This document shows positions 4,202 to 42,112 of a stretch of 60,197 nt of DNA, piece by piece (position 1 is the first letter of the stretch; each line of letters begins with the position of its first letter). The DNA lies in the NCBI GenBank assembly GCA_025054955.1, contig JANWZE010000100.1, positions 1 through 60,197 of the forward strand, read 5' to 3'. The translations under genes and the position numbers were made by a program. The notes under the pieces are model-generated. The model did not search any database. It saw only the letters and a list, made by a program, of their open reading frames with translations, and was not told the DNA's origin. This stretch comes from Blastocatellia bacterium. GTDB taxonomy: Bacteria > Acidobacteriota > Blastocatellia > HR10 > J050.

Positions 4202-5545
4202 TCAATCAACCAGCATGCGTTTGAGAAATTCGACATCGTACTGTCCGCTGACGAACTCAGGCGCAGCCAGAATACGCTGATGCAGCGGGATTGTAGTGCG
4301 GACGCCCTCAATACGAAATTGCCTCAACGCCTCTGCCATAATACGCAACGTCTCCGGTCGCGTCCTCCCATGCGCAATCAGCTTGCCAATCATCGAATCG
4401 TAGAACGGCGGGATGGTGTACCCGGCTTCAACGTGTGTGTCCAATCGGAGTGCCTCGCCTGTTGGTGGATCAAACACAGTGATGCAGCCGGGGTCAGGTT
4501 TGAATCCGTTTTGTGGGTCTTCGGCGTTGATGCGACATTCAATCGCATGACCGTTCCACCGGACCTCGTCCTGTTTGATCGTCAACGGTTGATTGGCGGC
4601 GATACGAATTTGCTCTTTGACGATGTCCACACCCGTGACCATTTCGGTGACCGGATGCTCGACTTGAAGCCGCGTGTTCATCTCCATGAAGTACAAGCGA
4701 CCGTCGGCATCGCGTAGGAATTCAACGGTGCCGGCGCTGACATATCCGATCGCCTTCATGGCCGCGACGACGCGCTCGCCCATGCGACGGCGTGTATCAG
4801 CATCTATCACCGGCGATGGAGATTCTTCGACCAGTTTTTGGTGATGACGCTGGACTGAGCATTCGCGTTCACCCAGATGAATGACATGACCAAACGCATC
4901 GCCCAGCACTTGAAATTCAATGTGTCGGCCACCTTGAATGATCTTTTCCAAATAGAGGCCAGGGTGACCAAACGCTTTCTCTGCCTCCAAGGCGGCCTCG
5001 TCGAAAAAGCGTTGCAACTCGCCTTCATCGCGACAGACGCGCATCCCCTTGCCGCCGCCGCCGGCTGTGGCCTTCAACAAGACGGGATAGCCAACGTAGC
5101 GGGCCACCTGTTTCGCCTCATCCACATTGGCCAGAAGCGATGCAGAGCCGGGAATCGTTTCCAAGCCGGCGGCCTGCATGGTTTGCTTGGCTGTCAGTTT
5201 GTCGCCCATCAATCGAATCGCGTGAGGCGGCGGCCCGACAAACGCAATCTTCTGTCGCAAGCACCGCTCGGCAAAGAGCGCGTTCTCCGACAGGAATCCA
5301 TAACCGGGATGCAGCGCCTGACATTCGTATTGCTCGGCCGCTTGCAGCACGGCGTCCATGTTGAGGTAGCTTTCTTTGCTCTGCGCTGGACCGATGCAGA
5401 CACTCTTATCCGCCAAGCGTAAATGCGGCGAGTCGCGGTCTGCGGATGAGTGCACGGCGACCGTTTCAATGCCCAGCTCACGGCAAGCGCGTATGATGCG
5501 CAATGCGATCTCTCCTCGATTGGCGACTAGCAGTCGGCGAAACAT
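4202..5545 (-). CDS. accC: Biotin carboxylase (acetyl/propionyl-CoA carboxylase subunit AccC)
   Basis: The 447-residue product is a full-length biotin carboxylase, which uses ATP and bicarbonate to carboxylate biotin on a carrier protein. The N-terminal domain begins MFRRLLVANRGEIALRIIRA. The ATP-grasp domain has the glycine-rich loop KATAGGGGKGMR, the catalytic FMEMNTRLQVEHPVTE block and HLGERECSVQRHHQK. The C-terminal domain has INAEDP. The length equals that of stand-alone AccC, so no biotin carrier or carboxyltransferase is fused. The GcdA-like carboxyltransferase follows downstream on the same strand and is the probable partner. No biotinyl (AMKM-type) carrier gene is visible in the window, so it must be supplied from elsewhere. 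Confidence 0.95.
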   Translation of the reverse strand: MFRRLLVANRGEIALRIIRACRELGIETVAVHSSADRDSPHLRLADKSVCIGPAQSKESYLNMDAVLQAAEQYECQALHPGYGFLSENALFAERCLRQKIAFVGPPPHAIRLMGDKLTAKQTMQAAGLETIPGSASLLANVDEAKQVARYVGYPVLLKATAGGGGKGMRVCRDEGELQRFFDEAALEAEKAFGHPGLYLEKIIQGGRHIEFQVLGDAFGHVIHLGERECSVQRHHQKLVEESPSPVIDADTRRRMGERVVAAMKAIGYVSAGTVEFLRDADGRLYFMEMNTRLQVEHPVTEMVTGVDIVKEQIRIAANQPLTIKQDEVRWNGHAIECRINAEDPQNGFKPDPGCITVFDPPTGEALRLDTHVEAGYTIPPFYDSMIGKLIAHGRTRPETLRIMAEALRQFRIEGVRTTIPLHQRILAAPEFVSGQYDVEFLKRMLVD

Positions 5546-10220: not shown

Positions 10221-11453
10221 TCACCGTGAAACAGCGGCCAGCACATCCAACCGGCCACGTCCAAGCATGCCGCGATAGCCCGGATTGAGCCCGTCAATGT
10301 TGACCGCTGAATCAAGCACGGCTTGCGCTGCATTGGCCCGACCAGACGATTTGACCAACGCGACAGCGCCGCTTGCGAGCGCCGCTGAAAACGACGTGCC
10401 GCTGGCTGACGCAAAACCGCCACCGGGGAAGGCGCTAATCAACTCGACACCGGGGGCGCACAGGTCTACGTGAGCACCATAATTGGAGAGAGCGGCTTTG
10501 TAATCAGACAGGTCTGTAGCGGCAATGGTCATCGCTTCTTCGACCGACGCCGGATACGGCACCGGCCAATTTGTATTGCTGTTGCCGGCGGCTGTGACTA
10601 CGATGGCTCGACGCAGCGCCAGGTTCATGACGCCTCGCATCGCTTGTGGTTGACCGAGCGTGCCAAAGCTCAAGTTGATCACATCGGCGCCATTCTGCGC
10701 AGCGTAGCGGATCGCCTTCGCGATATTACTGGCCGTCCCACGACCGTCAGGGCCAAACGCGCGTACCGGCATAATCGTCACACCAGGAGCAACCAGCTTG
10801 ATCAAGCCGGCCACAAGCGTTCCGTGTCCATAACCGATGCCGCCACTGACTTCAGAAGGATCACTATCGCGATCCACAAAATCATAACCGGATGTGAGAG
10901 ACCCCAGAGCCGGGTGGGCTACATCAATCCCTGTATCAATCACGGCGACAACGACGCCACGCCCATCGGCCACAGCTTGAGCTGACATAACGCCGAGAAG
11001 CGAGAGCGCCGGTTGAGCCGCATAGGCGGCGCTGCTGCCGGGGCCATCTACATTGGCGATCGTTCGTTGATTGATTTCAGGAATCTGCAATAGATAGTTG
11101 GGTTCGACCGATTTGACATCACGATCAGCGCGGAGCTCACTCATCACCTGTTCAACGGTTCGACCCTGTGGGATGCCCAACAACCAGATTCGCTCATCCA
11201 CCTCTTCGAGGACGACCAGATTGTAACGACCAGCTACGCCTTGAATCGTTCGCTGAGGTTTGAGCTCAACGATGATTGTCTGCGGATCATAACTGGCTGC
11301 CGATGAGTCAGCCTGAACAGCGGCATCATCGCCGACCGGGTTCACACTGCTCACATCAACAAGCGTGAGGCAGAGTATCAATCCAGCTATCATCACCAGC
11401 ATGCTGAAACTCCATGAGTTTGTTGTGTGTTTTCTTGAATATCGGTCCCTCAT
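10221..11453 (-). CDS. Membrane-anchored or secreted subtilisin-like serine protease (S8)
   Basis: The 410-residue protein has a signal or anchor helix at residues 16-33. A pro-region of inhibitor-I9-like character follows (about 56-120, with VEQVMSELRADRDVKSVEPN), then a complete S8 domain. The triad is visible as Asp173 in VIDTGID, His210 in GYGHGTLVAG and Ser354 in SGTSFSAALASG, with the oxyanion Asn291 in TAAGNS. The protease should therefore be active outside the cytoplasm. The ATG at 11451-11453 follows GGAGGG at good spacing. It begins 14 bp after the stop of the TPR-CHAT gene and is the last gene of the sigma/anti-sigma/CHAT operon, so a role downstream of that regulation is likely. 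Confidence 0.9.
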   Translation of the reverse strand: MRDRYSRKHTTNSWSFSMLVMIAGLILCLTLVDVSSVNPVGDDAAVQADSSAASYDPQTIIVELKPQRTIQGVAGRYNLVVLEEVDERIWLLGIPQGRTVEQVMSELRADRDVKSVEPNYLLQIPEINQRTIANVDGPGSSAAYAAQPALSLLGVMSAQAVADGRGVVVAVIDTGIDVAHPALGSLTSGYDFVDRDSDPSEVSGGIGYGHGTLVAGLIKLVAPGVTIMPVRAFGPDGRGTASNIAKAIRYAAQNGADVINLSFGTLGQPQAMRGVMNLALRRAIVVTAAGNSNTNWPVPYPASVEEAMTIAATDLSDYKAALSNYGAHVDLCAPGVELISAFPGGGFASASGTSFSAALASGAVALVKSSGRANAAQAVLDSAVNIDGLNPGYRGMLGRGRLDVLAAVSR

Positions 11454-11467
11454 GGTTCCCTCCAGTG

Positions 11468-14374
11468 TCAAAAGGCTGCTCCAATCAGTACAAACGGAGC
11501 CCAGTAATACGGATGTGGATGCTGTTGCTTCATCGCCAACTGAGCGGCTCGCAATGCAGCACGCTTGTTCAAGCCTTGTTTCAAGCCCTCGTACAACGTT
11601 GGCATGAAGGTCGCCGTTGAGCGATCTTTGACCATCCATGAGCTGACAATCAGCGATGAAGCGCCAGCATAGAGAAATCCACGTGTCAGTCCAAACAATT
11701 CATCGCCTGGATAAACGCCGTTCAAACCGGTTTCGCAGGCGCTAAGCGTGACCAGGTCTGCTTCAAGTCGCAGATTCAAAAGGTCGTAAAAGCTCACCCA
11801 TCGGTCGGCTAGCTTCATCGCTGAGAACAGGGGTTGATCGGAACGAAACGTAGCATGCGTAGCCAAGTGCAGCAGACCAGCGCGGCTGCCGTCACAAAGG
11901 AGGCGTTGCCACGTGGCGTCTGGCCCCAGGACCGCCTTGGCTTCAGGCCACAGAGCTTTGAGCGCAGTGACCTCATCCGTGACGCAGGGCGCGGCGTCAT
12001 CAGCAAGGCCCATCAGCAATATCGGCCCGGCCTTCTGTCGCGCCCGCGCTTTATCCACACACCACTTGAATACACTGGCGCTGGGCGCATAGGAAATTTC
12101 GTGATGATCAAGCAAGTAACGATGGCCATCGTACAATGCATGAAACGGAACGCTGTGCAGCAGGCCATGTGGCACGAATACCAGCCGCTTGCCTTCGATC
12201 AGCGATTCAATCGGCGCGATCAACTCAGTGTAGAGCTTCTTCAAACACGAATCAGCGAACGCCTGACGATTGCGTCGGTGAGCGTGAACAAATGCTTCGC
12301 CCAGCATGCATTGATTCAAGCTATGGCGCAGCGGGCGCAGTAATGATGACACGCGCTCGTCAGTGGTGATGTCATTCAGCAGATGAAGCTCCCGCCGCGT
12401 CAGCACGAACACCTTGACGCGTCCGTTGACGATGTAATACTCAACCAGCGCTTCATCGTCGGCCAAAGCGTCTCGCAACGCACCCACGTCCAATGAAAAA
12501 CTGCTATACAGTGAGGCAGCCTCCGCGTCTTCGATGCGCAGTTGTTGAATCAACCGAGCTATCTGCTCCTCATCGGCTCGCGCAGCCGCATACAGCTCAG
12601 CCAGTCGGCCGGCCATACTCTGCTTGCCCTGCCACTCTATCTGCTCAATGCGCGTATAGTACCAATTCAACCGCTCGCGCAGCGTTTCAATTTGCTTGAA
12701 CGAATCGCGGCTGCCAGGGTTGGAAGCCACCCGTTCAATCGTTCGACCCGTCTGAGACAACAGATCGAGCAAGACGCGGGATTTGGAAGCCTCAGCGTAC
12801 CGAAACGCCGCTTCGATCATGTCATCGGTTTCTCGTTGTGAGCACCATTGAACAAGGTCTTCGTAGACGGACATCTTGTCATGAATGAAGGCGCAAGCCA
12901 ATTGTTCCACCCGGATGCCACGCCGCAATCGTTCCACTTGCTCCACCGCGCGCGTGTAGTAGCGGTAGGCTTGATCTGCTTCGCCGGTTTGCTCCAGTAG
13001 ATTGCCCAGGAAATGAAGTATCTGATAGGCCAAGGATGGCGCTTCGATCCTGCCAAGGGCAGTCAACGCCGCCTCGCTCAGAGATCGCGCGCGGGCGACA
13101 TCGCCGCTGCTGAAGGCGATGCGCGCATGCTGAAATTGGGCATAGGCCGCTTTGGCGACCAGACGGTGTTGCTCAAACAGAGCCTCGGCCTGTTGGCAAA
13201 GCGACTCGGCCTGATCCCACTCCTGGCGGCGCGCGCACACCTCGCTCATGTGGAGCGCGGTCACGGCTGCAAACACATCGTTGCCTTCGGCGAGGAATCC
13301 CTGACGCGCCGCTGCTAGCTCTGAGGCAGCCGCGTCTAACCGGTTCTCACGCAGATGAACGATGCCCAGATACATGCGAGCCTTGAGCTGTTCATAGCGC
13401 ATGTCCAGCGCCTGAAATTTCTCGATGGCCGATTGCGCCGCTTCACGAGCTTGCTGGTAAGCATTTAATTGCCAGTAGACCTCGGCCAGGTCCAGATCGC
13501 ACAGCGCGTCCTGAGCCGGGTCGCCAAGCTGACAGGCTTGCAAACGAACCTCTGCAAATAGCCGCAGGCTCTCTTGAAATCGCCCTCGTTGGAAGTAGAG
13601 CCATGCGATGCTGTAGTCAGCTTGGTTGACCAGCAGCGGCATAGATAATCGCTCGTAGACCTCTCGGGCCTGCTGATAGAGTGTCACCGCCTGTTCAAAC
13701 TGGTTTAAGCAGACGTAGACGTTGGCCGTGTTGTAGCTGACCGAGCCGATATTGAACTGATGGCCGCCCTCCTGATAGATACTCAATGCTTGTTGATAAT
13801 GGCTCAGCGCCTCATGGTAGCGATCCAGCCGATGATAAACGTTGCCCATGTTTTCCAATGTCTGAGCGAGCAACAGGCGCTGGTCGTGATGGCGAAACAC
13901 CTGACAGGCGCGCTGACCCACCGTCAACGCTTCTTCATAGCGTCCAAGATACATCAGCACATCGAGCTTGGCCCGCCCGATGCGCGCTGCATCAACGGGG
14001 CGATTGAGCCGATGATAAAGGCTTTCAGCCTGATCGTATTCAAGCAACGCCTCACGGTACCGCCCAGAAAAATGGCGCACCAGCGCCACGGCGTGATGAG
14101 CCAACGCCGTCGCGTCCGGCTGATCAATCAGTGTGGCGGCAGCCTGCGTCAGCTCGGCCAGCCGGATAGCCTGATGAATGTCAACGCGGATCAGATGAGC
14201 CACCTGCTCTTTCAACCGCTTGACCCAATCTACCGTAATGTATGCTCGATGCGCTGATAACAACCGATGCGCGTCAACGGCATCATCCTGTGAAAGGACC
14301 TGGCGCAGTAAGGCCTCAACGGGTAGCTCCGGCGTGCGGCTCGGCGTTGTGAGGGTTGGCATCATCGTCGTCAT
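11468..14374 (-). CDS. TPR-repeat CHAT-domain (caspase-like) protease
   Basis: A 968-residue protein. After a short N-terminal region come about ten TPRs (roughly residues 60-480; for example MGNVYHRLDRYHEALSHYQQ and SVSYNTANVYVCLNQFEQAV). A charged coiled-coil linker and a C-terminal CHAT domain (about 640-968) follow. The caspase-type dyad is intact: His840 in HLATHA and Cys880 in LSACETG, so a cysteine peptidase is predicted. TPR-CHAT proteins include the Csx29 protease of Craspase and many conflict or cell-death effectors; the TPRs would hold the sensor or partner. I use the ATG at 14372-14374; a TTG two codons earlier is possible. The start overlaps the stop of the zinc-finger gene (14377-14379) nearly completely, implying translational coupling. 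No signal peptide, so it is cytoplasmic. Confidence 0.92.
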   Translation of the reverse strand: MTTMMPTLTTPSRTPELPVEALLRQVLSQDDAVDAHRLLSAHRAYITVDWVKRLKEQVAHLIRVDIHQAIRLAELTQAAATLIDQPDATALAHHAVALVRHFSGRYREALLEYDQAESLYHRLNRPVDAARIGRAKLDVLMYLGRYEEALTVGQRACQVFRHHDQRLLLAQTLENMGNVYHRLDRYHEALSHYQQALSIYQEGGHQFNIGSVSYNTANVYVCLNQFEQAVTLYQQAREVYERLSMPLLVNQADYSIAWLYFQRGRFQESLRLFAEVRLQACQLGDPAQDALCDLDLAEVYWQLNAYQQAREAAQSAIEKFQALDMRYEQLKARMYLGIVHLRENRLDAAASELAAARQGFLAEGNDVFAAVTALHMSEVCARRQEWDQAESLCQQAEALFEQHRLVAKAAYAQFQHARIAFSSGDVARARSLSEAALTALGRIEAPSLAYQILHFLGNLLEQTGEADQAYRYYTRAVEQVERLRRGIRVEQLACAFIHDKMSVYEDLVQWCSQRETDDMIEAAFRYAEASKSRVLLDLLSQTGRTIERVASNPGSRDSFKQIETLRERLNWYYTRIEQIEWQGKQSMAGRLAELYAAARADEEQIARLIQQLRIEDAEAASLYSSFSLDVGALRDALADDEALVEYYIVNGRVKVFVLTRRELHLLNDITTDERVSSLLRPLRHSLNQCMLGEAFVHAHRRNRQAFADSCLKKLYTELIAPIESLIEGKRLVFVPHGLLHSVPFHALYDGHRYLLDHHEISYAPSASVFKWCVDKARARQKAGPILLMGLADDAAPCVTDEVTALKALWPEAKAVLGPDATWQRLLCDGSRAGLLHLATHATFRSDQPLFSAMKLADRWVSFYDLLNLRLEADLVTLSACETGLNGVYPGDELFGLTRGFLYAGASSLIVSSWMVKDRSTATFMPTLYEGLKQGLNKRAALRAAQLAMKQQHPHPYYWAPFVLIGAAF

Positions 14375-14376
14375 GG

Positions 14377-15015
14377 TCAATTGATCGGATCGGTAGCATC
14401 CAGTCCATGAATGGCTATCTCGCCGCTCTTGAGGCGGATGAGCAGGTTGTAAACGCCCTCAGGACTTTCATCAAGATAAAACCACCCAAACTCATTCGCG
14501 AACGTTCGGGCAACGAGCTCCGTTTGTTGATACAGCTCAACTTCGCCTCCGACGACCGATTCCAGGTCACCGCTGACCGGATTGGCCTGGCCGGTAATCA
14601 GCATACGAGGCTCACGTTCGCTGAAATGAATGCACAGGTCAATGTCGTACTCCGTGGTTCGGTAGAGCAGTTGTCTGGACATTTTTCGCGTGCTGCGAAA
14701 TCCAAGCAGCATGTCTCGATCAAAACTGTCAGCTACCAACAATGCCACGTTTGAGCGATCAACCGGCGCTCCGATCCTGTGCTGATCAAACAAGCTCACC
14801 GCCCGCCGCATCAGCCACTCGGGCACATCGCGCAGCATCCAGTGATCTACCTGCGACCACACCTGTTGCAACTGGCTCACCTGCGCATTGCAGGTCGCAC
14901 ATCCTTGTTGCAAATGTTGGCGTATAAATGCGGCCTCGCGCGTAGACAACAGGTTGCGCACGAAGTCCGCGAGCTGTTCGATTGACGGACACCATTTTGA
15001 GTGGGCTACATCCAT
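14377..15015 (-). CDS. Soluble zinc-finger anti-sigma-like protein with a beta-sandwich C-terminus
   Basis: The 212-residue product starts with an all-helical region containing a variant zf-HC2 signature, HLQQGCATC (His-x4-Cys-x2-Cys, one residue longer than the usual His-x3-Cys-x2-Cys), as in anti-sigma factors that hold ECF sigma factors. There is no transmembrane helix, so it is a soluble form. The C-terminal part (about 115-212) reads as a small beta domain of the carboxypeptidase-regulatory kind: MLITGQANPVSG, then FANEFGWFYLDESPEGVYNL. It begins 12 bp after the sigma-factor stop and ends overlapping the CHAT gene. The likely role is to hold the sigma factor inactive until a signal, perhaps protease-linked, arrives; this is inference from motif and position. 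Confidence 0.75.
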   Translation of the reverse strand: MDVAHSKWCPSIEQLADFVRNLLSTREAAFIRQHLQQGCATCNAQVSQLQQVWSQVDHWMLRDVPEWLMRRAVSLFDQHRIGAPVDRSNVALLVADSFDRDMLLGFRSTRKMSRQLLYRTTEYDIDLCIHFSEREPRMLITGQANPVSGDLESVVGGEVELYQQTELVARTFANEFGWFYLDESPEGVYNLLIRLKSGEIAIHGLDATDPIN

Positions 15016-15027
15016 GCGTTGAGACCC

Positions 15028-15789
15028 TCAAAAGCCGAGTTGCTGAAGCGTCAACAGCAGTTTCCTTAAACATCGCCCGCGCTTGGGACCAATGGTGGAA
15101 ACCGCAAACCCTAATTCCTCGGCAATCTCTTCATACGATTTCAACTCGTCGTCGAAAAAGAGTCGTGTCAGAAGGTGGCGACACGGCTCATCCATCATCG
15201 CCAGTGCGTGACGTACCAACTGCTGCTTTTCGAGGGTCTCTAACACCTCGTCCGGCAGCGGCTGAGTATCGGCCACATTCGCCGCTTGCTCTGCCACCTC
15301 GTCCAGATTGACGAACGCTTGACGGTGACGCCGCTTCAATCGCATGCAGTGATGAATGGCGATGCTGGTCAACCATGACCGAAACTTGCTGTGATCTTTT
15401 AAGCGGTCTAATCCGCTGAGCACATCGAGTATTACCGATTGAAACACATCGGCCACGTCCTCCGGCGCTAGTTTCGACTTCCACGCAATCGAATAGATCA
15501 GGCCGCCATGCCGCTCGATAAGCACAGTCCAGGCATCTCGATTCCCTTGCAAACAGGCTGCGATCAATTCAGGGTCGTTCTGTTGCCGGAACCGAACCAT
15601 GGCCCTCCATGAGGCTGCCGGGTCTGGTTGAGCGCCTGCTTCGGCTCCATCGTCAACCACTGCATAAATCGTTTCTCGCGCTAGCCGACTCAGTTCCTCT
15701 ATCACTTTCCACAGTGGTTCCACACCAGGCTGAGGCAACGAGGTTGATCGTGCTTCAGGCTGACTCATTCTGTTGCATAGTCCATCCAT
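15028..15789 (-). CDS. ECF-like sigma-70 family RNA polymerase sigma factor
   Basis: The 253-residue protein has sigma region 2 at about residues 85-155 (AWTVLIERHGGLIYSIAWKS, PEDVADVFQSVILDVL, FRSWLTSIAIHHCMRLKRRH) and region 4 near the C-terminus (EEIAEELGFAVSTIGPKRGR, a helix-turn-helix), with only a short linker between. That is the two-domain ECF layout. An N-terminal extension of about 70 residues is longer than usual; a start at MSQPE (15768) would shorten it by seven codons. It heads a four-gene operon with the zinc-finger protein, TPR-CHAT protease and subtilisin, and probably transcribes it. Its target promoters cannot be read with confidence from one copy. Confidence 0.88.
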   Translation of the reverse strand: MDGLCNRMSQPEARSTSLPQPGVEPLWKVIEELSRLARETIYAVVDDGAEAGAQPDPAASWRAMVRFRQQNDPELIAACLQGNRDAWTVLIERHGGLIYSIAWKSKLAPEDVADVFQSVILDVLSGLDRLKDHSKFRSWLTSIAIHHCMRLKRRHRQAFVNLDEVAEQAANVADTQPLPDEVLETLEKQQLVRHALAMMDEPCRHLLTRLFFDDELKSYEEIAEELGFAVSTIGPKRGRCLRKLLLTLQQLGF

Positions 15790-28276: not shown

Positions 28277-28423
28277 GCCGCCGCTTAAGGCCCGCCGTCG
28301 TGGGTTGTTTGTACCACATCGTGGCACGCCAAACTCGTGTAACCAGGCACCGCCGCCGCTTAAGGCCCGCCGTCGTGGGTTGTTTGTACCACATCGTGGC
28401 ACGCCAAACTCGTGTAACCAGGC
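28277..28423. repeat. Two-copy tandem repeat, period 75 bp
   Basis: Copies starting at 28277 and 28352 share GCCGCCGCTTAAGGCCCGCC through AACTCGTGTAACCAGGC almost without change. A third truncated start follows at 28424. Confidence 0.85.
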
Positions 28424-28706
28424 GCCGCCGCCGCTCGGAGTTCGCCGGCACGCACACAGCGACGCTCCTACAAAGAACGTGGCCTTTACCGAAGCTATTA
28501 CTCTAAGACCTATCTCGGCTGCCACGCACTGGCACGGCTTCACGCGACGGCGGTTTCGCACCGCGCCGCCTGACATGGCTGCGGTGTCGCACTGCCGCCG
28601 CCTGACATGGCCGCAAGGTCGCACTGGCACGGCGTCGCACGGCTTATGCGCTCACCTTGCCGCTCCTCGGCTGACTGGCTATCCTTGGCGGCTTATGTGC
28701 GGCTCA

Positions 28707-37228: not shown

Positions 37229-38386
37229 CTAGTATGGCGTTTGAATGCCGGCCAGCCGGGCCATGCGCTCCACCGCAATGAGCGCCTTCTTGGTGACTGA
37301 GGCATTCAGCAGCGTTGCGCCCAGCACTTCGGGCACGCTCACCGTCGGTTGATTGCAACCTGCGCACAACGGGATCTCATGCTGGCGACCTTCCAGATGT
37401 TTGCGCCGCATATCCACCATCACCGGGCTGTTCCAAATCTCTTCCAACGTTTGCTGATGGATATTGCCCAGAACCGATTCGTGCAGGAAATCGTGACAGC
37501 ACGAAACGGCCGTGCCATCGTAGTAGAATGCCATCTGCCGCCACAGCAAGAAACAGGGTTGACGGCGCCCGCTCTCCGCCTGAAGCACAATTTTTTTCTT
37601 CACACCAGTTCCATTGCCGTTGCCGGCGCTGCTTGCGCTCTGACCTGTCCCATTGCCCTGGCCGGTGCTGCTTGCGCTCTGACCTGTCCCATTGCCGTTG
37701 CCATTGGTCAGTTGAACCAGTTTCGGTTGATTGACGCTGCGGTCTTCGACATTTCCGGCAAAGTTGAAGAATCGCTTCAAGCGAACGGCATCAGCTCCTA
37801 GCTGTTTCCAGTGACGGTAAAACTGCTTGGCTTGATGCGCGTTCTCGTTCATCACGATCATTTGCATGACCGTGTACGGCCCTCGCCCTGCCGCGCGTTT
37901 CATTTGCAGAAATGTCTCTGCGTTTTCCACGACTTTGCGAAAGCTATCGGCGCCACGAATACGCCGGTAGGTCTCGCGGTCTTCGCCATCAATTGAAATG
38001 ATCAGGTCGGCCAATTTGGAGTTGATCAGTATCTCGGCCCGGCGCCGATCCAGGATGGTGCCATTGGTTGAAATGCCGGTTTGAATCCCCTTGGAGGCAG
38101 CATATTCGATGAATTCGCCAAACTGTGGATGCATCAACGGCTCACCTGCCAGGTGCAGATAGGTGAATTCTAGATACTGGCTGGCTTGGTCAATGATGCG
38201 TTGGAATGTTTCCATCTTCATGTTGCCCAGCCCACGCTCAGCATTGTCGTCGCGCGGGCACATAATGCACTTGAGATTGCAGCGACTGGTCAGTTCGATT
38301 GAAAACTCAATCGGCATCCCGTCACAGAGCGCCCGGCGACCCAAGTAATCTCTGGCGATTCGGATGCGATTTGTCAGCGAATTCAT
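37229..38386 (-). CDS. Radical SAM protein with SPASM domain and Asn/Gly/Ser insertion
   Basis: The 385-residue protein has the radical SAM cluster motif Cys-x3-Cys-x2-Cys (CNLKCIMC) near residue 36, the Gly-Glu segment HLAGEPLMHP and ISTNGT. A C-terminal SPASM-type auxiliary-cluster region follows, with Cys residues in QPCFLL, SCCHDF and CAGCNQP. Such enzymes modify peptides or act in glycan/lipid maturation. A low-complexity stretch of about 35 residues (NGNGNGTGQSASS units, 37608-37710) separates the core from the SPASM region and is internally repeated at DNA level. GGAGGAGG precedes the ATG. A partial inverted repeat separates it from the GT2 gene upstream. Confidence 0.88.
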   Translation of the reverse strand: MNSLTNRIRIARDYLGRRALCDGMPIEFSIELTSRCNLKCIMCPRDDNAERGLGNMKMETFQRIIDQASQYLEFTYLHLAGEPLMHPQFGEFIEYAASKGIQTGISTNGTILDRRRAEILINSKLADLIISIDGEDRETYRRIRGADSFRKVVENAETFLQMKRAAGRGPYTVMQMIVMNENAHQAKQFYRHWKQLGADAVRLKRFFNFAGNVEDRSVNQPKLVQLTNGNGNGTGQSASSTGQGNGTGQSASSAGNGNGTGVKKKIVLQAESGRRQPCFLLWRQMAFYYDGTAVSCCHDFLHESVLGNIHQQTLEEIWNSPVMVDMRRKHLEGRQHEIPLCAGCNQPTVSVPEVLGATLLNASVTKKALIAVERMARLAGIQTPY

Positions 38387-39263: not shown

Positions 39264-39379
39264 AGCTTTTCTCCTTGCAATACAGCCCCGACGGACAACG
39301 TTGCTGGTTAATCCGAAACTCACGGCCATGCTGTCTCATCCAGTGACCAGAGTTTCGGATTACCGGCTGCAAGACACGA

Positions 39380-40825
39380 CTAGACCCCGTTATCGTTATC
39401 GTTGTCGTTATCGTTATCGTTATCGTTGTCGTTGTCGTTATCGTTATCGTTATCGTTATCGTTGTCGTTGTCGTTGCCGTTGCCGTTATCGTTATCGTTG
39501 CCGTTGCCGTTACCGTTATCGTTGTCGTTGTCGTTGTCGTTGCCGTTGCCGTTATCGTTATCGTTGTCGTTGCCGTTGCCGTTACCGTTTCCGTTGTCGT
39601 TGCCGTTACCGTTGCCGTTACCGTTGCCGTTGTCGTTGTCGTTGCCGTTGCCGTTACCGTTGCCGTTACCGTTACCGTTTCCGTTGCCATTACCGTTGCC
39701 ATTGCTGTTCTGTTCAGCTTCAGCAGCGGTTTCAACGGCCTGTTGTGTGGTGGCACGTGCAGAGTCGTCAGCGGTCAGAGCGGCATCAACACTTTGATCG
39801 AAACTGCCCTGCGCGTGCGCTGATTGAGCCATGCTCAGATGCGCTTCAGCTTGACTCAGTTGAGCCTGAAGTGCGCTGGTTTGGGCGCCGAAAGCGGCGG
39901 CCAACGCGATGGCCTGACGAGCTTGGGCAATGCTGGCTTGGGCTCCGGCAATTGCGGACGATGATTCGGGCGGACCGGCTTGTGTTTCCAAACGGCCCTT
40001 GTAACGGAGTTCACTTCGTCCTGAGCTATTCGTGGTGAAGGAAGTCACCCGGCCACCATTTAGTTCAAGCGTGAACGGCGGATTGACATCCAAATCGTCA
40101 ATGCTCAGCTCAAATTGCTGATCAAGTCCCCCGGCTGTCAGCTCTGTGACTGTAATTGTCGCTTGTCCTTTTGCATTGGGGTCCACTTGCGTTGGCTGCA
40201 AGGTGACTCGGGACGTCGTCTTAGATGGAGCGAAACGTCCTTGCAAAACCACCTTCCCTTCGGCGTTCAGAATCCGAATGGAGGTCATCGTGGCGAGGTT
40301 TGCTTGCGACACAAGATCGTAAGAGCCGCTCAGCCGAATGGCTCGACCATCAGCGCTCAGGAGTTCAACCGTATCAAACTGAGTGACAGCAGGCGCTGTG
40401 ATGGGCAACCGTTGTTGACCGGCTGTGGGTTGTTGACCACGCACATAGGTCACCTGAAGACCGCCCCGGCTGTTGGCTTGCAACTGATCCAAGCGCCGGC
40501 CATTGACAAACAGTTGTACCCGCTCATTGGCCATAAGCTTGTACACATCAAGGGAAAAAGTTTCTACCGTGCGCCCATTACGAACGACTGATTTGACAGT
40601 GGCACTCCCATAAGCCCGCAACACAGTATCCGTTGTGGTTAACTCGATGCGCCGGTAGGTAAGCTGTCGGTTAGAAGTTTGGGCTTCAACAACCGTCGTG
40701 GTGGTCCAGTGCCAGTTGGAATGCCCTCCGCTCAACGCCACCCCAACGGTGATAATGGCCATCAGTAGCGGAGTTGTCCATCGCCGCCAAAGATTTGGCA
40801 GGTTGGAAAGCTTGTATGTTGTCAT
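39380..40825 (-). CDS. Exported protein of unknown function with a long Asn-Asp/Asn-Gly tail
   Basis: The 481-residue protein has an N-terminal signal-like helix (about 16-32, TPLLMAIITVGVAL). Two similar beta-rich domains are seen; both contain an ELNG/FVNGRRL-type turn followed by SGRSELRYK or SRGGLQVTY. An Ala/Gln-rich helical segment (about 280-365) follows, and then a tail of about 110 residues made only of Asn alternating with Asp or Gly. The tail is encoded by a hexanucleotide array (39385-39712). GGAGG precedes the ATG at 40825. I do not recognise the family. The tail could bind Ca2+ or simply be a slippage product; the encoded acidity rises toward the C-terminus, where Asp replaces Gly. 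Confidence 0.8.
   Translation of the reverse strand: MTTYKLSNLPNLWRRWTTPLLMAIITVGVALSGGHSNWHWTTTTVVEAQTSNRQLTYRRIELTTTDTVLRAYGSATVKSVVRNGRTVETFSLDVYKLMANERVQLFVNGRRLDQLQANSRGGLQVTYVRGQQPTAGQQRLPITAPAVTQFDTVELLSADGRAIRLSGSYDLVSQANLATMTSIRILNAEGKVVLQGRFAPSKTTSRVTLQPTQVDPNAKGQATITVTELTAGGLDQQFELSIDDLDVNPPFTLELNGGRVTSFTTNSSGRSELRYKGRLETQAGPPESSSAIAGAQASIAQARQAIALAAAFGAQTSALQAQLSQAEAHLSMAQSAHAQGSFDQSVDAALTADDSARATTQQAVETAAEAEQNSNGNGNGNGNGNGNGNGNGNGNDNDNGNGNGNGNGNDNGNGNGNGNDNDNDNGNGNDNDNDNDNGNGNGNDNDNGNGNDNDNDNDNDNDNDNDNDNDNDNDNDNDNGV
39385..39712. repeat. Hexanucleotide microsatellite CGTTRY, about 55 units
   Basis: The plus strand reads CGTTAT, CGTTGT, CGTTGC and CGTTAC units end to end. Since the unit is six bases, copy-number change never shifts the reading frame of the overlapping minus-strand gene. 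The other frames give spurious Arg/Tyr/Cys and Leu/Ser/Pro polymers. Confidence 0.95.
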
Positions 40826-41277
40826 GTTGAGTTCCTCCAAAATTTTAATGTTGTCGCCCAAATTTCCTTCACGTCCTTATAGAGGCGGAGCGCACCCGAA
40901 AAGATACATCGTTCTCAACATTTTTTCGCCCATGAACCACCGTGGAATGCTTTTAGGTGTCGTGGATTGGCGGAATTGCTCATGCCCTCTGGGCACACCA
41001 CGAAATGACGAAAATGTTATTTTCATGGCAGCACGGGCGGGAACGGCTATGCCGCATTCAGTCGCCCCTATGCGATGGCACGCCACGAAAATAGGTCACA
41101 GGCAGGAACGCCTGTGCCACATTGCCTGAGCAGCCCAGGCGGGATGTTTGTGTCACATTCGCATAAGGAGTCGGGCCTCTGTTCACTGGCGTGCTGGTCT
41201 TCTTGCAAAGAACATAAACACAAATATACCAACGTCAACGGCAGAAATTCATGCTATACTTCACGCCGCTCACTGGC
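40826..41277. other. Divergent intergenic region between the Asn-tail and response-regulator genes
   Basis: About 450 bp without a supported gene. It includes degenerate short repeats of the GGAACG-CTGTGCC type (around 41045-41120) and presumably the two divergent promoters, which I could not assign. Confidence 0.45.
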
Positions 41278-41964
41278 ATGCGCGTATTGCTCGTCGAAGA
41301 CGAACGAAAAATGGCTGAGTCGCTGAAACGCGGCTTGCAAGAAGAAGGCTACGTCGTTGACATTGCGCGCGACGGCGAAGAAGGCTGGCATTACGGCACT
41401 CAATACAGGTATGACGTGATCATTCTCGATATCGTATTGCCGGTTCGCAGCGGCATTGAGCTGTGCCGAGAATTGCGCCGACAAAAAATCAAGACACCAA
41501 TTCTGATGCTGACAGCCCGCGATACGGTTGAAGCCAAGGTTGAGGCACTTGATAGCGGTGCTGATGATTACCTGACAAAACCGTTCGCTTTTGCCGAGTT
41601 GCTGGCGCGGCTGCGGGCGCTACAACGACGCGGCCAACTAGACCCATCACTACAACTGCACGCTGCCGATTTGGTGCTCGATCCGGTGACCCGACGGGTC
41701 AGCCGCGCCGGCCGTGACATCACGCTGACGCCAAAGGAATTCGCCTTGCTCGAATGCTTGCTGCGGCACAAGAACCGTATCCTGTCGCGAGCCATCCTCG
41801 CTGAAGCCGCTTGGGGCGAGAGCTTCGACGCCCTGACCAACGTGATTGATGTCTACATCAACTACCTGCGCAATAAAATTGATCGAGACTTTGAACCGAA
41901 ATTGATCCATACCATTCGAGGCGCCGGTTACATGCTCAAGGATGAACCGGTTCGCGATTCGTGA
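41278..41964 (+). CDS. OmpR/PhoB-family response regulator (orphan)
   Basis: The 228-residue protein has a receiver domain (MRVLLVEDE, phospho-acceptor Asp51 in VIILDIVLP, LTARDTVEAK, switch Lys in YLTKPF) and a C-terminal winged helix (PKEFALLECLLRHKNRILSR, TNVIDVYINYLRNKID, IHTIRGAGYML). It is a DNA-binding regulator. The start at 41278 matches the usual MRVLLVEDE beginning; an ATG at 41251 adds nine residues. Normally a histidine kinase gene follows at once; here a repeat array begins at the stop codon and the next gene is on the other strand, so the kinase is absent or elsewhere. Confidence 0.93.
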   Translation: MRVLLVEDERKMAESLKRGLQEEGYVVDIARDGEEGWHYGTQYRYDVIILDIVLPVRSGIELCRELRRQKIKTPILMLTARDTVEAKVEALDSGADDYLTKPFAFAELLARLRALQRRGQLDPSLQLHAADLVLDPVTRRVSRAGRDITLTPKEFALLECLLRHKNRILSRAILAEAAWGESFDALTNVIDVYINYLRNKIDRDFEPKLIHTIRGAGYMLKDEPVRDS

Positions 41965-42112
41965 GCCGTGAGCCGGGATTCGGGATTCGTGAGTAGTGAT
42001 CCGTGATCTGTGGTTCGTGAGCGGGGTTCGTGAGCCGGGATTCGTGAGTCGGGAGCTGGGATTCGGGGTTTGTGAGCCGAGGTTCGTGAGCCGTGAGCCG
42101 TGAGCCGTGACT
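41953..42112. repeat. Degenerate tandem array of GTGAGCCG / GGATTCG units
   Basis: About 160 bp of imperfect 8- to 15-bp repeats (TTCGTGAGCCGGG, GTGAGCCGTGAGCC) starts within the last codons of the response-regulator gene, whose TGA stop is part of a repeat unit. It fills the space between that gene and the convergent redoxin gene. The array may act as a bidirectional terminator or be a slippage product. Confidence 0.85.

Follow-up and report, generated by a model that had tools for sequence, protein, structure and literature searches.

Coding mini- and microsatellites (VNTRs) are known as a class in bacterial surface proteins. Craspase, in which the TPR-CHAT protease Csx29 cleaves Csx30, a protein that inhibits an ECF sigma factor (PMC10028731), is the only system among the literature matches listed whose title or abstract ties TPR-CHAT to a sigma factor. 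The locus described here lies in a 60,197-nt contig (JANWZE010000100.1; 'the window' means this whole stretch) of a Blastocatellia draft genome (GCA_025054955.1). It carries a hexanucleotide array encoding the C-terminal tail of a probably exported protein and, elsewhere, a cassette of a sigma factor, a small protein that we call ASF, a TPR-CHAT protein and an S8 subtilase (Table 1). As in the VNTRs of bacterial surface proteins, the repeat unit is a multiple of three and length can change without loss of frame; the evidence for change here, in contrast, is between species, and the unit itself varies (6, 42 and 39 nt) while the composition stays. As in Craspase, an ECF sigma factor, a small protein and a TPR-CHAT protein stand next to one another in one cluster, with the difference that several copies of the cassette continue with a secreted S8 protease. 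No paper on Asn-Asp or Asn-Gly repeats of this kind was found, as judged by titles and the beginnings of abstracts, and none of the matches listed in a literature search on Blastocatellia repeats mentions Blastocatellia.

Table 1. Features of the tail gene and the protease cassette (window coordinates)
Feature	Position	Strand	Basis
Probably exported protein with Asn-Asp/Asn-Gly C-terminal tail, 481 aa	39383..40825 (stop 39380-39382)	-	ORF translation; relatives in G001 and G002
Signal-peptide-like N-terminus	40676..40825	-	Hydrophobic peak LLMAIITVGVALSGG, mean hydropathy 2.1 over 15 residues
Predicted Cu,Zn-SOD-like beta domain without His or Cys	40310..40675	-	AF2 model residues 1-122, Z about 10 to SOD1 barrels
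Predicted second beta region, mostly low model confidence	39974..40225	-	AF2 model
Predicted three-helix module	39713..39973	-	Structure models; related modules in S8 proteases of G006 and G008
Hexanucleotide array, 54 units, encoding (Asn-Gly/Asn-Asp)n tail, predicted disordered	39386..39709	-	TRF, translation, predicted disorder
Perfect 13-nt inverted repeat, strong RNA hairpin, 17 nt past tail-gene stop	39309..39362	.	RNA fold z -3.3
S8 subtilase of sigma/ASF/TPR-CHAT/S8 cassette, no array in this copy	10221..11639	-	
TPR-CHAT protein of cassette	11468..14380	-	CHAT E 6.4e-63
ASF, small Cys-containing protein, anti-sigma-like by position and Cys pattern only	14377..15015	-	
ECF-type sigma factor of cassette	15028..15789	-	

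The array consists of six-base units that encode 54 strictly alternating Asn-X pairs (108 residues), followed by Val and a TAG stop. The preliminary description had given about 55 units and 110 residues of alternating Asn and Asp/Gly, which is correct to within one unit. The X residue is Gly in 27 pairs, Asp in 26 and Ser in one, and the units differ almost exclusively at codon positions 2 and 3 of X. TRF scores the array at periods 6, 24 and 36, and with a tandem unit divisible by three inside an ORF it is a frame-preserving coding repeat. Five of the six reading frames are stop-free across it, the hexamer containing no stop in them, and the other stop-free frames were not accepted as genes. 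AAC accounts for 52 of the 54 Asn codons of the array, whereas 13 long window ORFs use it in 155 of 266 (binomial p 2e-10); since the units of an array are not independent, the bias does no more than illustrate homogenisation. Blocks of up to six units recur within the array; shuffled arrays average 4.1 and attain six in 50 of 1000 cases, so that higher-order duplication is only weakly indicated. Exact repeats inside the array extend to at most 42 nt, for which reason collapse during short-read assembly is not expected, and the array in this genome is confirmed as real. A five-unit pattern allowing up to two mismatches gave 48 + 16 matches in the whole genome compared with 5 + 1 for a reversed control; among the matches listed, it falls at the tail locus and at one place on another contig, C56.

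The tail gene occupies a minus-strand ORF at 39380-40861 with a likely ATG at 40825 that is preceded by GGAGGA. Its product had earlier been called exported, and the hydrophobic N-terminus makes this probable. The exact arms of the hairpin beyond the stop occur once in this genome, and the structure is terminator-like without a T run. The mature core was modelled with AlphaFold2 (321 residues, four sequences; mean pLDDT 67.4, pTM 0.43). The model places residues 4-122 in a Greek-key-like beta barrel resembling those of superoxide dismutases (Z about 10; rmsd about 2.5 for some 98 aligned residues), with weak Foldseek E-values (best 0.019) and 8-16% identity. The beta region (core residues 1-234) has neither His nor Cys and hence lacks the His ligands and any copper site of the Cu,Zn superoxide dismutase kind, so that the modelled similarity is to be read as a resemblance of fold and not as an enzyme claim. 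This beta domain may be related to CHRD domains. The best structural match of the helices is a designed helical protein (Z 10.5), which is uninformative. When helices and tail were folded alone without an alignment, the helices mostly reached pLDDT 94-98, while the tail stayed at 35-50 without secondary structure and is thus predicted to be disordered. Only one of the 111 residues counted in the tail is hydrophobic, aromatic or basic, and the net charge over these residues is -27.

Profile searches gave little for this protein. Pfam had no match at 0.01. The two NCBIfam matches were weak and fell well short of cut-off: the helices matched SAXB (0.0025) and the beta part an Ig-like PGS domain (0.0027). 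Against the gathering score of DUF4398 (PF14346; 27.9), the helical module in the window and L122 had no match, the relative L120 stayed below (21.6), and a helical module in an S8 protease of G008 scored above (39.6). A sequence search of solved structures with the core reached a best E of 0.32, PADLOC had no match to the core, and the whole tail protein matched nothing in a plasmid search.

A search with the core matched 10 of 147 genomes at E <= 0.001. The match extends over most of the core only in the window genome itself (G000), in a Blastocatellia MAG (G001, JALSQX010000016.1) and in an Acidobacteria MAG (G002, RFHM01000264.1), which form one family; the other seven matches are partial. 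In a wider sample of the phylum, 15 of 396 genomes had weak core matches at the same threshold, and we did not count 13 of these as whole-protein relatives, as their matches are limited to the helical module or to a portion of the beta region. Genome contigs scanned with the single tail protein as query gave no relative. All four family members in the three genomes, i.e. the window gene and the relatives L024, L033 and L036, end in an Asn/Asp/Gly tail, with a DNA unit of 6 nt in the window, 42 nt in L024 and 39 nt in L033 and L036. The last two lie in collinear stretches of G001 and G002 of which the pieces align at about 81-89% DNA identity. Within this syntenic pair, which consists of paralogs of the window gene in draft assemblies, TRF counts 13.6 copies of the 39-nt unit in L033 and 2.1 in L036; a collapse of the shorter array is possible, because its two copies are identical and both genomes are drafts. 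The difference makes an in-frame change of length between species likely, and to this extent, from paralogs in drafts, the frame-neutral length variation proposed for the tail finds some support. Modification of the tail by glycosyltransferase or radical SAM genes downstream was considered and rejected, as no ORF in L034-L036, the stretches around the related tail genes, matched them at E 1e-8 (L034 begins at a contig end).

The preliminary description had also noted a graded charge. Asp is indeed enriched towards the C-terminus of the window tail (permutation p 5e-5; 1.5e-4 with runs kept), but the gradient does not hold as a design, being weak in L024 and reversed in L033, in L036 and in the linkers of two S8 proteases described below.

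Alternating Asn-X arrays are not confined to this family. Among 162 genomes of the class, 23 have arrays of six N-[D/G/E] pairs. In each of these 23 we inspected one locus (for G000 the one on C56), and in all except L057 (22 of 23) the array lies in an ORF with the Asn-X reading. Many hosts resemble, by eye, kinases, secretion ATPases, TonB-like or Tad-like proteins. Runs in 18 of the 22 ORFs are pure Asn-Gly. Over all 22, the run length is 6-15 pairs; the window tail continues through 53 N-[D/G] pairs without a break. The window array shares with these Asn-Gly linkers the alternating Asn-Gly encoded by AAY GGN hexamers, yet it differs in forming a free C-terminal tail with a run far beyond their maximum of 15 and in having about half of the Gly replaced by Asp. 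A strict (Asn-Asp)6 was found in just one of the 396 sampled phylum genomes, the window genome, and in none of the other 395. Its matches fall in the tail gene and in an S8 protease gene on C56: all nine forward ones are listed on C56, and of the nine reverse ones the single one listed is in the tail gene, where a run of 14 Asn-Asp pairs explains all nine. Recent copying between the two arrays is unlikely because their longest shared exact stretch is 23 nt and AAC is used in 52 of 54 units in one and 25 of 49 in the other.

Several further repeats were observed. A radical SAM/SPASM protein in the window (37229-38386) has an in-frame NG-rich insert of the NGNGNGTG type between its two domains, shorter than the tail and built from a 39-nt repeat at 37604-37696. 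A Tad-pilus-like-looking protein in G001 (L068:4838-6667, contig C38) contains a long NHNGNE-type repeat in its middle, and a protein in G013 (L071:5797-7206, contig C152) with Asp-rich repeats, judged TSP3-like by eye, has an NG/ND tail that may have arisen independently in parallel. The window also includes a degenerate tandem array with periods 7, 14, 21 and 28 after a response regulator ORF (41951-42110) and two copies of a 75-nt unit with 98% matches (28277-28435).

The array-bearing protein on C56 is an S8 subtilase by its Peptidase_S8 profile match and its Asp/His/Ser motifs. Its array sits as an N-terminal linker between a membrane-spanning segment and the prodomain, and its gene adjoins those for an ECF sigma factor, ASF and a TPR-CHAT protein. 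This neighbourhood recurs, at 10221-15789 in the window and in L023, L034, L037 and L102-L119. Neither Pfam nor NCBIfam has a match to the window copy of ASF. Relatives of ASF exist in 41 of 156 genomes, and the window genome contains seven matches. Among 21 annotated cassette loci, 12 include an S8 ORF (13 genes, or 14 with the window copy), and nine are without one in the stretch covered, some being cut by a contig end. The region between signal and prodomain contains an N/D/G array in two of the 14 S8 proteases (G000 C56 and G001 C16) and two helical modules in another two (G006 C40 and G008 C63); no array was seen in the other ten, for some of which the N-terminus is covered in part. By the core profile, these helical modules resemble that of the tail protein (G006, E 4.7e-6 and 3.6e-5; G008, 3.0e-4). 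In a tree of the 14 S8 sequences, the array-bearing proteases of G000 and G001 group at 84/81, below the program's support mark, and the two with helical modules at 96/94, marked as supported. Each of the two array-bearing S8 genes points away from its sigma gene. In L023, the array-bearing S8 gene is followed immediately by a 133-nt repeat in about two copies (5200-5487).

The CHAT protein of the window matches a Csx29 model at E 2.8e-14 with 52.9 bits, far below the cut-off of 300. The sigma/ASF/CHAT trio could, as a putative mechanism by analogy, work like Csx29 cleaving an inhibitor of an ECF sigma factor. Among the literature matches listed, none describes a sigma/small protein/TPR-CHAT/S8 neighbourhood.

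The tail gene and the protease meet in G001, where a tail gene comes immediately after the array-bearing S8 gene on the same strand, both carrying Asn/Asp/Gly arrays. The gap is about 160 nt if the ATG at 1723 is used, and the sigma, ASF and CHAT genes run the opposite way. These adjacent genes are the closest relatives of the window-genome tail gene and of the C56 S8 gene. The adjacency is seen in this one genome; in the window genome, the two genes lie on separate contigs, with no tail gene after the C56 S8. The rare array common to both hints that the two proteins work together, and it is this array, the single adjacency and the shared helical module that link the tail to the S8/CHAT cassette. 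Asn-Gly arrays also serve as linkers in cytoplasmic-looking proteins, so that arrays of this kind do not have to indicate a common pathway. It is a speculative and rather unlikely extension that the tail protein would be a dedicated partner of an S8 protease governed by a non-CRISPR relative of Craspase logic. An ECF sigma factor, a small inhibitor and a TPR-CHAT protein inside the cell would then control the S8 protease outside, and the two surface partners would share either one fast-evolving Asn-Asp array or one helical module, serving in both as matched spacers that proteases leave intact.

The reading that we favour, with about an even chance of being right, takes the array to be an inert, length-plastic, acidic and disordered spacer on a probably exported protein that is tied to the S8 protease module. 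Selection would retain the Asn/Asp/Gly composition while in-frame repeat turnover rewrites unit and copy number. The tail, as predicted, would be a long, hydrophilic C-terminal spacer on a core of SOD-like, second beta and helical parts, and it may act as a protease-inert tether or brush in a surface context that it would share with the cassette S8 protease. Subtilisin-like and trypsin-like proteases cut after hydrophobic, aromatic and basic side chains. Being nearly free of such residues, the tail should survive beside secreted S8 proteases. This inert composition is less clean in the relatives (14 of 148 residues in L024, 18 of 223 in L033 and 7 of 80 in L036) and in the S8 linker stretch of G001 (11 of 145) than in the window tail. 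A surface brush, as suggested in the preliminary description, is plausible for an exported-looking, disordered and acidic protein that may reside at the surface.

A doubtful though serious alternative is neutral slippage, by which a hexamer expanded at the end of a gene where extra hydrophilic residues are harmless, leaving a tail without function. The AAC bias suggests a recent expansion, Asn-Gly arrays are common in the class, and the unit is not conserved among the relatives. On the other hand, pure drift predicts frequent loss, so the fact that all four family members, albeit a small sample from three genomes, keep an N/D/G tail in the same position although its units differ speaks against it, as does the recurrence of similar arrays in the closest pair of S8 proteases. 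We consider it improbable that the array is a contingency locus at which fast changes of repeat number within a population tune the length of the tail. A frame-preserving six-base unit, a homogenised array and the differing copy numbers of the 39-nt unit between relatives would suit such a locus, yet the mixture of unit types and the limited length of exact repeats should slow slippage, and the comparison covers one genome of the genus.

Binding of Ca2+ by the tail, part of the preliminary description, has become very improbable. EF-hand/dockerin, RTX and TSP3 patterns have no match in the window tail, where the strict N-X alternation makes DxDxDG impossible, and none in the L024 tail. The 26 Asp residues and net negative charge of the window tail would nonetheless permit diffuse binding of counter-ions, and loose EF-hand-like patterns exist in some relatives (one each in L033 and L036, 11 in the S8 linker stretch of G001). 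It seems far-fetched that the tail is a deamidation clock, in which its 27 Asn-Gly pairs would turn into Asp or isoAsp with age and add charge after export; Asn-Gly is the fastest-deamidating dipeptide, but many Asn-Gly linkers of the class sit in cytoplasmic-looking proteins. That the array is an assembly artefact is hardly credible even for a draft of 152 contigs, given its short exact repeats, its several unit types and the similar tails in two other assemblies.

For this family, the comparison means that the composition of a protein tail is retained while its DNA unit gets replaced, and the pair with 13.6 and 2.1 copies offers a natural test case. Beyond the tail, the finding points to a recurring neighbourhood of sigma factor, small protein, TPR-CHAT protein and S8 protease that none of the literature matches listed describes.
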